Assembly (NCBI GenBank): GCA_020446665.1
Contig: JAGREF010000210.1
Coordinates: 1-12,458 of the forward strand
DNA length: 12,458 nt
From: Sphingomonadaceae bacterium
GTDB taxonomy: Bacteria > Pseudomonadota > Alphaproteobacteria > Sphingomonadales > Sphingomonadaceae
Reading direction: 5' to 3'
Shown: positions 6,819 to 10,522 of the stretch, one piece after another
Position numbering within the stretch: the first letter of the stretch is position 1
Layout of the letters: each line of letters opens with the position of its first letter
Made by a program: the position numbers and the translations under genes
Notes under the pieces: generated by a model
What the model saw: only the letters and a program-made list of their open reading frames with translations
Told to the model about the DNA's origin: nothing
Database searches by the model: none

Positions 6819-8192
6819 GTGGCACGTAACTGGACCCCCGAAAGCTGGCAGGCATTCGAAGCGAAGCACCTGCCCAAATATGAAGATGCATCGCTGCTGG
6901 CAGAGGCAGAGAGCACGCTTTCCAACTACCCGCCGCTGGTTTTTGCGGGTGAAGCGCGCGCGCTGAAGGCTGAGCTGGCGGATGTGGCCGCTGGTCGCGG
7001 GTTCCTGTTGCAAGGCGGCGATTGCGCGGAGAGCTTTGCCGAATTCCACCCGAACAATATCCGCGATACATTCCGCGTATTGCTGCAGATGGCGGTCGTG
7101 ATGACATTTGCCAGCAAGCGCCCGGTGGTGAAGGTCGGCCGTATGGCGGGCCAGTTCGCGAAACCGCGCAGTTCCGACACGGAAACGCAGGGCGACATGA
7201 CCTTGCCGAGCTATTTCGGCGACATCATCAACGGGATCGATTTTGACCCCGAACAGCGCGTGAACGATCCGCAGCGCATGATCCGCGCCTATTCGCAGGC
7301 AGCGGCAACGCTCAACCTGCTGCGCGCCTTTGCCGGGGGCGGCTATGCCAATCTGCGCCAGGTGCATCAGTGGACGCTCGATTTCATGGGACGCAGCCCC
7401 TGGTCGGACAAGTTCGGCGAAATGGCCGATCGCATTGGCGAAGCGCTGGACTTCATGGAAGCCTGCGGGGTTGACCCGGCGACTGTCCCGCAATTGCAGG
7501 GCACCAGCTTCTACACCAGCCACGAGGCGCTGCTGCTCCCCTATGAGCAGGCGCTGACCCGGCAGGATTCGCTGACCGGTGACTGGTATGACACCAGCGC
7601 GCATATGGTCTGGATCGGTGACCGCACCCGTTTCGAAGGCTCGGCCCATATTGAATATTGCCGCGGCATCGGCAATCCGCTTGGCATGAAATGCGGCCCA
7701 AGCATGGAGCCGGACGCGCTGCTGCGTATTCTCGACACGCTCAACCCGGCGCGCGAAGCCGGGCGGATTACGCTGATCAGCCGCTTTGGCCACGAAAAGG
7801 TCGAGGCTGGCCTGCCTGCACTGGTCCGTGCCGTGAAGCGGGAAGGGCACCCGGTCGTGTGGTCATGCGATCCGATGCATGGCAATGTCATCAAGTCGGA
7901 CAGCGGCTATAAAACCCGGCCTTTTGACCGGATCCTCAGCGAAGTGAAGGGCTTCTTCGCCGTGCACCGCGCGGAGGGGACCCATGCGGGCGGCATCCAT
8001 ATCGAAATGACCGGGCAGGATGTGACCGAATGCGTGGGCGGTGCTATCGGCATTGCCGATGAAGCGCTGGGTGACCGCTATCACACCCATTGCGATCCGC
8101 GCCTGAATGCGGCGCAGTCGCTGGAACTGGCTTTCCTGCTGGCAGAAATGCTCAATATGGAAGTGCAGGAACGGCAGGCAGACGCCGCCTGA
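6819..8192 (+). CDS. aroG: class II 3-deoxy-7-phosphoheptulonate (DAHP) synthase
   Basis: This 457-residue cytoplasmic enzyme condenses phosphoenolpyruvate with erythrose 4-phosphate, the first step of the shikimate pathway to aromatic amino acids. It belongs to the type II (plant/mycobacterial) family. The expected metal ligands are present: Cys69 in QGGDCAESF, His354 in DPMHGN, Glu396 in HIEMTG and Asp426 in HCDPRLN. The phosphoenolpyruvate-binding stretch [18 protein letters not shown] is at 101-118, and KCGP is at 291-294. The start is GTG 6819, with AGAAG a few bases upstream. The nearest upstream ATG runs into a stop at once. The N-terminus is short compared with the mycobacterial enzyme, which carries extra regulatory helices, so feedback control probably differs. 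It stands alone between the protease and egtB, with no other aromatic-pathway gene nearby. The family call is very secure. Confidence 0.96.
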
Positions 8193-8242
8193 TTTGGGGC
8201 GCTGTCGGCTAATTCGGGAGCTACCCTTTCAAATGTAACCTT

Positions 8243-8270
8243 TCTCGGCCATCATGCGAATTGGCCGAGA
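8243..8270 (+). repeat. perfect 9-bp inverted repeat just upstream of the egtB ribosome binding site
   Basis: TCTCGGCCA (8243-8251) and TGGCCGAGA (8262-8270) are exact reverse complements with a 10-base loop. The second arm ends one base before the egtB Shine-Dalgarno AGGAG (8272-8276). There is no T-run after the stem, so a standard intrinsic terminator for the DAHP synthase gene is not supported. It could be an operator for a dimeric regulator, an RNA hairpin affecting egtB translation, or a Rho-type end of the upstream transcript. Confidence 0.6.
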
Positions 8271-8271
8271 C

Positions 8272-8276
8272 AGGAG
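8272..8276 (+). promoter_or_regulatory. ribosome binding site for the GTG start of egtB
   Basis: AGGAG lies 9 bases before GTG 8286. It supports the GTG as the true start and sits directly against the 3' arm of the inverted repeat. Confidence 0.6.
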
Positions 8277-8285
8277 ACATTTTCC

Positions 8286-9536
8286 GTGCCCCAGCCCGAT
8301 ATCCGCGCAGCGAGCGACGCCAATCCGTCCCTCGTTGACCGGTTCGAAGCCACCCGCGCGCTGACAGAGGCGCTGTGCGCTCCGCTGAGCGATGCGGATG
8401 CCACCCTCCAGTCGATGGAGGATGCATCGCCAGCAAAGTGGCATCTGGCGCATACGACCTGGTTCTTCGAAACCTTCCTGCTGCGCGATCATCTGCCGGG
8501 ATATAATCTCTATCGCCAAGACTGGCCGTTCCTGTTCAATTCCTATTACGAAGCGGAAGGGGCGCGGATTGCGCGCTTTTCGCGCGGGATGCTGTCGCGT
8601 CCGAGCGTGGCAGAAGTGCTGGAATGGCGCGCGCATGTGGATCAGGCGATGCAGCTGCTTTTGTCAGATCCGGTCTGCAAGCCTCTGATCGAGCTTGGGA
8701 TTGCGCATGAGCAGCAGCATCAGGAATAGCTGCTGACCGATATCAAGCATGCGCTGTTTCAGAACCCGCTTGGCCCGGCCATGTGGGAGGCCGCGCCGCA
8801 AGCTGCCTCCGCGCAAAAGGAACAGGACTGGATCAGCCACCCCGGTGAGATCGCGATGATCGGCCATGACGGGCCGGGCTTTGCCTTTGACAATGAAGGG
8901 CCTGTTCATCGCGTCTATCTGGAACCCTTCGCCCTGTCTGACCGTCTGGTTACCAATGGGGAATGGGACGCCTTCATCGCCGATGGCGGTTATCGCAATC
9001 CGGCGCTGTGGCTGTCGGATGGCTGGGCGTGGGTTAATGGAAATGGGATCAACCTCGAGGGGATCAGCGCACCGCTCTATTGGCATGAGGGCGATCATTT
9101 CACCCATTGCGGCTGGCAGCCCCGCGACCCGGATGCGCCGGTCAGCCACATTTCCTATTACGAAGCTGACGCCTTCGCCACATGGGCCGGGTGCCGCTTG
9201 CCGACTGAGTTCGAATGGGAAGCTATCGGCCAGTTGCATGATCCTGCGGATGGCAACCAGCTCGACAGTGCCGCGCCGCCGCTTCCGCGGGGCGGGGAGG
9301 GGCTGTTCGGCGATTGCTGGCAATTCACCCGCTCGGCCTATCTGCCCTATCCCCGTTTTGCCCCGGCAGCGGGCGCGGTGGGCGAATATAACGGCAAGTT
9401 CATGTCCGGCCAGTTCGTGCTCAAAGGGGCGAGCTGCGCCACTGCGCGTGGCCATTCGCGCGCGTCCTATCGCAATTTCTTCTACCCGCACCAGCGTTGG
9501 CAATTCACCGGATTGCGGCTGGCAAAGGATATTTGA
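8286..9536 (+). pseudogene. egtB: hercynylcysteine sulfoxide synthase EgtB interrupted by an in-frame TAG
   Basis: EgtB is the non-haem iron sulfoxide synthase of ergothioneine synthesis. It joins oxygen, a thiol donor (gamma-glutamylcysteine or cysteine) and hercynine. Here 416 codons lie in one frame from GTG 8286 to TGA 9536, but codon 148 is TAG. The piece before the stop (8286-8729, 147 residues) is the DinB-like domain with all three presumed iron ligands: His56 in HLAHTTWFFE, and His141 and His145 in HEQQHQE. The frame continues with LLTDIKHALFQNP and an entire FGE-sulfatase-like domain. That domain carries GCRLPTEFEWE, GEYNGKFMSGQFVLKGASC, YRNFF and RWQFTGLRLA, with no further lesion. 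Relatives have Leu after HQE, so TTG to TAG is one base change. ATG 8781 opens the second piece but has no ribosome binding site. The gene could be inactive, a sequencing error, or expressed by read-through. Confidence 0.88.
8727..8729 (+). other. in-frame amber codon in the egtB iron-ligand motif
   Basis: TAG follows directly after the codons for HEQQHQE and precedes CTG-CTG-ACC-GAT-ATC (LLTDI). The reading frame is the same on both sides, because 8286, 8727 and 8781 differ by multiples of three. The lesion is therefore a substitution, not a frameshift. Confidence 0.95.
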
Positions 9537-10522
9537 TGACAACTAACCAAGGCCTCAAGCTCGTAAACCTTGATGATAGCGGTGTAGACCGCGCCTTCCG
9601 TGCCGATGTGCTGGCCGGATTGCAGCAGCAGCCCAAGGCAATCCCAGCGCGCTGGTTCTATGACGATGCCGGGTCGGAGCTGTTTGAGGCGATCACCGCT
9701 CTGCCCGAATACTACCCGACCCGTGCGGAAACGGAGATTCTGACGGAACGCGGCGCGGACTTCGCGCGGCTGATCGGGCGAGGCAAGGCGGTGGTTGAGT
9801 TTGGCTCGGGCAGTTCAGTGAAGACCCCGCTTTTGCTGCGCGCGATAGATCCGGCGGCCTATGTGCCGCTCGACATTTCGGGTGATTTCCTGCGTGCGGC
9901 AGCAGCGGACCTCTCGACGAAATTTCCCGGCTTGCCGATTTACCCGGTGGAGGCGGACTTCACCCGCCAAGTCGCTTTGCCTGATCAGGTGCGGGATATA
10001 CCCAAGCTTGGTTTCTTCCCCGGATCGACCATCGGCAATATGGTGGCGCGCACGGCTGTGGATCTCCTGCGTTCGATGCGGGCTACGCTGGGTGAAGCGT
10101 CGCAGCTGCTGATCGGGATGGACCTGATCAAGGATATCGAAGTGCTGGAAGCAGCCTATGACGATGGCGCTGGGGTGACAGCAGACTTCAACCTCAATCT
10201 GATCCGCCGGATCAATCGCGAACTGGATGGCACGATCCCGCTGGATGCCCTGCGCCATGTCGCGTGCTGGAACGATGATTTCGCGCGGATCGAAATGCAT
10301 CTGGAAGCACTGCGCCCGATTTGCTTCGAAGTGTCTGGCCAAAGCTTCTCGCTCGAACAGGGCGAGACCATCCACACGGAAAACAGCCACAAATTCGACC
10401 GACGCAGCGCCAATATGTTGCTGCTTGCCGGGGGTTGGACCCCGCTGGAGCGCTGGACCGACACAGAAGGACGCTTCTCGCTGATCCTGGCCAATGCTAC
10501 CTTGCCGCGAAATGCACCGTGA
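9536..10522 (+). CDS. egtD: L-histidine N-alpha-methyltransferase EgtD
   Basis: EgtD trimethylates histidine with three S-adenosylmethionine molecules to give hercynine, the substrate of EgtB. The protein has 328 residues, the usual size. The N-terminal segment PARWFYDDAGSELFEAIT is at 37-54, followed by PEYYPTRAE at 57-65. The SAM-binding glycine motif VVEFGSGSSVKT is at 86-97. DISGDFL is at 113-119, FPGSTIGN at 161-168 and the histidine-binding TENSHKF at 281-287. Glu282 and Ser284 match the residue numbers I recall for the mycobacterial enzyme. ATG 9536 overlaps the egtB TGA by one base (TGATG), and AAGGA lies 6 bases upstream, so translation is coupled to or independent of egtB. An upstream in-frame start at 9497 is rejected because it re-reads egtB. 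The premature stop in egtB might reduce egtD expression through polarity. Confidence 0.95.
   Translation: MTTNQGLKLVNLDDSGVDRAFRADVLAGLQQQPKAIPARWFYDDAGSELFEAITALPEYYPTRAETEILTERGADFARLIGRGKAVVEFGSGSSVKTPLLLRAIDPAAYVPLDISGDFLRAAAADLSTKFPGLPIYPVEADFTRQVALPDQVRDIPKLGFFPGSTIGNMVARTAVDLLRSMRATLGEASQLLIGMDLIKDIEVLEAAYDDGAGVTADFNLNLIRRINRELDGTIPLDALRHVACWNDDFARIEMHLEALRPICFEVSGQSFSLEQGETIHTENSHKFDRRSANMLLLAGGWTPLERWTDTEGRFSLILANATLPRNAP

Follow-up and report, generated by a model that had tools for sequence, protein, structure and literature searches.

An in-frame amber codon directly after the iron-ligand motif of egtB in a Sphingomonadales draft genome

An egtB gene read across a single TAG

The window, by which we mean the whole 12,458-base stretch of DNA analysed, forms contig C127 in a draft genome (G000). 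It carries an egtB gene in two in-frame pieces between a gene for a class II DAHP synthase and a complete egtD:

6819–8192, forward strand: gene for a class II DAHP synthase, 5′ of egtB, as context only (TIGR01358)
8286–8729, forward strand: egtB 5′ piece, from the GTG start to the TAG, 147 residues; the DinB-like part, which holds the putative iron ligands (TIGR03440 profile positions 2–137)
8727–8729, forward strand: in-frame TAG, codon 148, where 110 of 110 aligned relatives have Leu
8730–9536, forward strand: egtB 3′ piece, 268 sense codons and a TGA, FGE-like part (TIGR03440 profile positions 139–413)
9536–10522, forward strand: egtD, complete, 328 residues (TIGR03438, 366.7 bits versus a cut-off of 290.9)

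The egtB frame opens at GTG 8286, with AGGAGA visible in the sequence 8 bases 5′ of it, and is closed by TGA at 9534–9536. Read from 8286 to 9533 with the TAG as X, it gives one EgtB of 416 residues with a single X at position 148. An open frame of 178 codons precedes the TAG, and 268 sense codons follow it. When the two sides are searched apart against TIGR03440, they match profile positions 2–137 and 139–413 of 413, and therefore exactly one codon is missing. The 5′ piece scores 169.8 bits and the 3′ piece 354.1 bits, neither of which alone reaches the cut-off of 360; taken together, the two pieces match the whole model. They also align end to end, at 409 bits, with the nearest solved chains of EgtB, the ergothioneine sulfoxide synthase (8qf6, 6qki/6qkj and 6o6l/6o6m; EgtB of Chloracidobacterium thermophilum). 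Because both sides match the EgtB family, the chance of an open frame after the TAG (about 2 × 10−4 for 267 open codons, from base composition alone) is irrelevant. The assembly thus contains an in-frame TAG in an otherwise open egtB, which as it stands does not encode one uninterrupted protein. A preliminary description of this DNA had stated that the frame is the same on both sides of the TAG and that EgtB is kept up to the egtD junction, and the profile matches bear this out.

The window gene resembles known EgtB both in matching the family model and in having egtD next to it, with the egtD ATG using base 9536, the last base of the egtB TGA. Among the 44 closest loci, egtD follows egtB in all 44 and a DAHP synthase gene lies upstream in 38, some flanks being short. 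We scanned ten non-egtB proteins of the window, including egtD and the DAHP synthase, against NCBIfam (the neighbours at 912–1334 and 2011–2463 were left out); eight had a match and two had none. No second interrupted gene was seen in the window.

The TAG lies within the local block HEQQHQE-[L]-LLTDIKH, as the codon right after HEQQHQE (H141, H145 and E147). An earlier claim had placed a single amber codon inside the iron-ligand motif; the codon is indeed single, but its position was off by one, since it stands 3′ of HxxxHxE and leaves the ligand motif unsplit. The HxxxHxE columns are invariant in all 110 aligned relatives and are kept in the window gene. Alignment with the solved EgtB chains 6qki and 6o6l places H56 as a putative iron ligand, and we take H56, H141 and H145 to be the three ligands. 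All three putative ligands are encoded 5′ of the TAG, and the three-histidine site appears to be kept. In a structure model of P0002, which is the closest intact relative, the motif is predicted to lie in a helix spanning residues 139–169, and residue 158 corresponds to codon 148; the model is poor as a whole (mean pLDDT of 49.7), with pLDDT values of 89 for residues 141–150, 81 for 151–160 and 55 for 161–170. A 147-residue fragment would, on this model, lose the end of the motif helix and the whole FGE-like part.

This placement bears on the idea of a working split enzyme, in which each piece would be produced on its own and the two would then associate. Conserved residues are kept in both pieces, and an ATG lies 17 codons past the stop. 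Against this, the stop falls inside the predicted helix, and this ATG (8781, 251 residues), the first possible restart, has no visible ribosome-binding site and would forfeit the conserved LLTDIKH block. Moreover, the protein search lists no separate 3′ piece of the same species, and none of the egtB-length family matches listed is split at the TAG site. We regard a working split enzyme as extremely improbable.

Conservation at the site and loss of egtB in the family

We aligned the window gene with 109 loci and P0002 (86% identical), without thinning the rows, some of which repeat one contig. The closest egtB relatives belong to Sphingomonadales, for example Qipengyuania, Porphyrobacter and Erythrobacter. 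All 110 aligned relatives have Leu at the TAG site, and in this the window gene differs from known EgtB. Of the 44 closest loci, 29 come from family genomes and 15 from named records; they encode the Leu by TTG in 30 cases, CTG in 11, CTC in 2 and CTT in 1. Over all 109 loci the counts are TTG 45, CTG 44, CTC 11, CTT 5, CTA 2 and TTA 2. The other genome of the same genus (G001) has TTG at the site. These counts agree with the proposal, made from the sequence of the window, that a TTG (Leu) codon became TAG. In a motif scan that read loci on the forward strand only, 255 of 295 proteins showed the motif, all of them with Leu, and the other 40 did not show it. One locus (L088) has a TGA at codon 5 of its extracted sequence.

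The remainder of the gene has not decayed. Among columns that do not vary across 30 other sequences, the window gene changes 0 of 51 before the stop and 1 of 113 after it, and intact relatives scored likewise change 0 to 2 before the site and 0 to 4 after it. Pairwise dN/dS against the same-genus genome is 0.216 before the stop and 0.129 after it; with synonymous distances near 1, these ratios would reflect only selection through nearly all of the separate history of the two genes. With egtB undecayed, three readings are left: the stop arose recently, it is not real, or it does no harm.

Across the family, egtB is patchy. In a search of 149 genomes, our own included, 133 had an egtB match and 16 had none. 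By our own count 11 of the 133 matches are weak or partial, which leaves 122 genomes with a strong match and 27 of 149 in which the gene is absent or weak. One of these 27 genomes (G124) has a fragment with an open frame of 92 residues. Among the strong matches listed, internal stops occur only in our own genome (one TAG) and in G008 (two TGA). The G008 egtB relative (G008:C1:1560756–1561808), in a genome that is 86% complete and 7% contaminated, is in several pieces with both TGA codons in frame and is probably a decaying copy or the product of a poor assembly. Judged from these matches, egtB is lost elsewhere in the family too.

Assembly error, readthrough and a nonsense allele

We surveyed in-frame stops in the part of the draft genome for which sequence was at hand (86 of 120 contigs, 582,747 bases, with contigs below about 3 kb mostly absent). 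Of 59 same-frame neighbouring pairs, 31 were read by eye and 28 were dropped by score, and family searches were run on egtB and five other pairs. Two pairs were judged to be interrupted genes, egtB and an HlyB-type transporter gene on contig C330, both by TAG. In four others (L142, L190, L151 and L187) the two sides belong to different families, and these are ordinary gene ends. A smaller control sample from the same-genus genome (228,062 bases) gave 19 pairs, of which 11 were dropped by score and 8 were read by eye; none of the 8 was interrupted. A small number of pseudogenes, or of consensus errors, would give a rate of this kind.

The transporter gene, encoding a type I secretion ABC transporter, has one in-frame TAG (L167:2562–2564, reverse strand), with TIGR01846 matched at 2–527 and 529–694. 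Its relatives in G015 (85%) and G006 (68%) have long frames free of stops, of 752 and 744 residues, respectively.

The main rival to a genuine stop is an intact egtB in the organism, the TAG having entered the draft assembly as a base error or as the consensus of a strain mixture. The draft genome, with 2,365,420 bases in 448 contigs, 77.49% completeness and 4.2% contamination, leaves room for such an error. The selection seen on the remainder of egtB and its lack of decay are equally expected of an intact gene, and a second single-TAG gene in this sample, with none in the control, fits an error-prone draft. On the other side, interruption of 2 of 59 pairs indicates that in-frame stops are not widespread, and a protein-database search with the 147-residue piece returned an identical entry (P0122, 147 of 147 residues). 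This entry represents one member sequence on four contigs, which seem to be other than the window contig because the longest is 1451 bases, compared with 12,458 for the window (unless the listing omits the window). Its presence on four contigs argues, with moderate support, against a one-off base error and for a real stop, although the four contigs may share reads with the draft genome or end exactly at the stop. Among the candidates scored in the protein database, none matches the 3′ piece at more than 88%, so that this search gives no contig spanning both pieces. Weighing these points, we consider an error of the draft rather unlikely.

If the stop is real, the amber codon could still be read through or suppressed to give some full-length EgtB. 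As in known amber recoding and suppression, by a suppressor tRNA or with pyrrolysine, an in-frame TAG is flanked by coding sequence in two genes of the sample; both interruptions judged real are TAG, and the 3′ part of egtB retains its conserved residues. The draft genome differs from such systems in its decoding machinery. RF1 is present, PylS has no match and, in the search for a suppressor that the preliminary description had called for, no CUA anticodon occurs among the 18 tRNA genes found, which in an incomplete genome is weak evidence. TAG is also a common gene end, closing 118 of the 560 picked gene segments that have a stop; it is neither rare at gene ends nor frequent within genes, and two TAG-cut genes are too few to demonstrate enrichment. 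Readthrough of egtB is, on these grounds, highly unlikely. We give slightly less credence to its broader form, in which the lineage tolerates in-frame amber codons and both egtB and the ABC transporter gene are read through by means of a suppressor tRNA encoded in sequence that the draft lacks; ergothioneine production would then depend on suppression.

An apparent loss of RF1 was rejected: prfA on contig C181 is in two pieces, but ten N lie between them (L132:1498–1507). A Leu tRNA whose entry carries the label 'tag' reads CUA rather than UAG. The RNA 3′ of the stop folds no better than shuffled sequences (z = 0.17), and Rfam has no match at 8200–9600.

The window egtB, as assembled, shares with an ordinary nonsense pseudogene one stop, an intact remainder, intact neighbours and intact orthologues in relatives, and we found no feature in which it differs from one. 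The probable explanation, in our view, is that this member of the Sphingomonadales carries a nonsense (amber) allele of egtB that is genuine and, in evolutionary terms, recent. The four options raised at the outset thus fare unequally: a fresh nonsense mutation is best supported, a sequencing error is less favoured in view of the P0122 entry on four contigs, and suppression (RF1 present, no CUA tRNA or PylS) and a split enzyme are disfavoured.

Expected consequences for ergothioneine synthesis

Under a nonsense allele, translation from GTG 8286 would stop at codon 148 and yield a 147-residue fragment. This fragment would hold the putative iron-ligand histidines but lack the remainder of the motif helix and the whole FGE-like part, so that no full-length EgtB would be made. 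PF03781, the FGE family, has a single match in the draft genome, and no second EgtB was seen there. In the excerpts available to us, EgtD is placed first in the pathway and EgtB after it (PMC10903977), and deletion of egtB in M. tuberculosis is described as abolishing ergothioneine (PMC6154287). With egtD intact, hercynine could still be made, while the sulfur-inserting step would fail and the antioxidant ergothioneine would not be formed. The earlier suggestion that the strain may make hercynine but not ergothioneine would thus follow if the stop is real. Early termination in egtB may in addition lower translation of egtD, because the egtB stop and the egtD start share a base.

In the excerpts returned for egtB together with pseudogene, nothing on such a case is apparent. 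The TAG in egtB is an ordinary case that by itself raises no new question. If real, it would add another egtB loss to a family in which the gene is kept by most, though not all, genomes, and it would make the bacterium a natural EgtD-plus, EgtB-minus case in which the role of hercynine alone could be seen. Annotation pipelines would give two partial genes at egtB.
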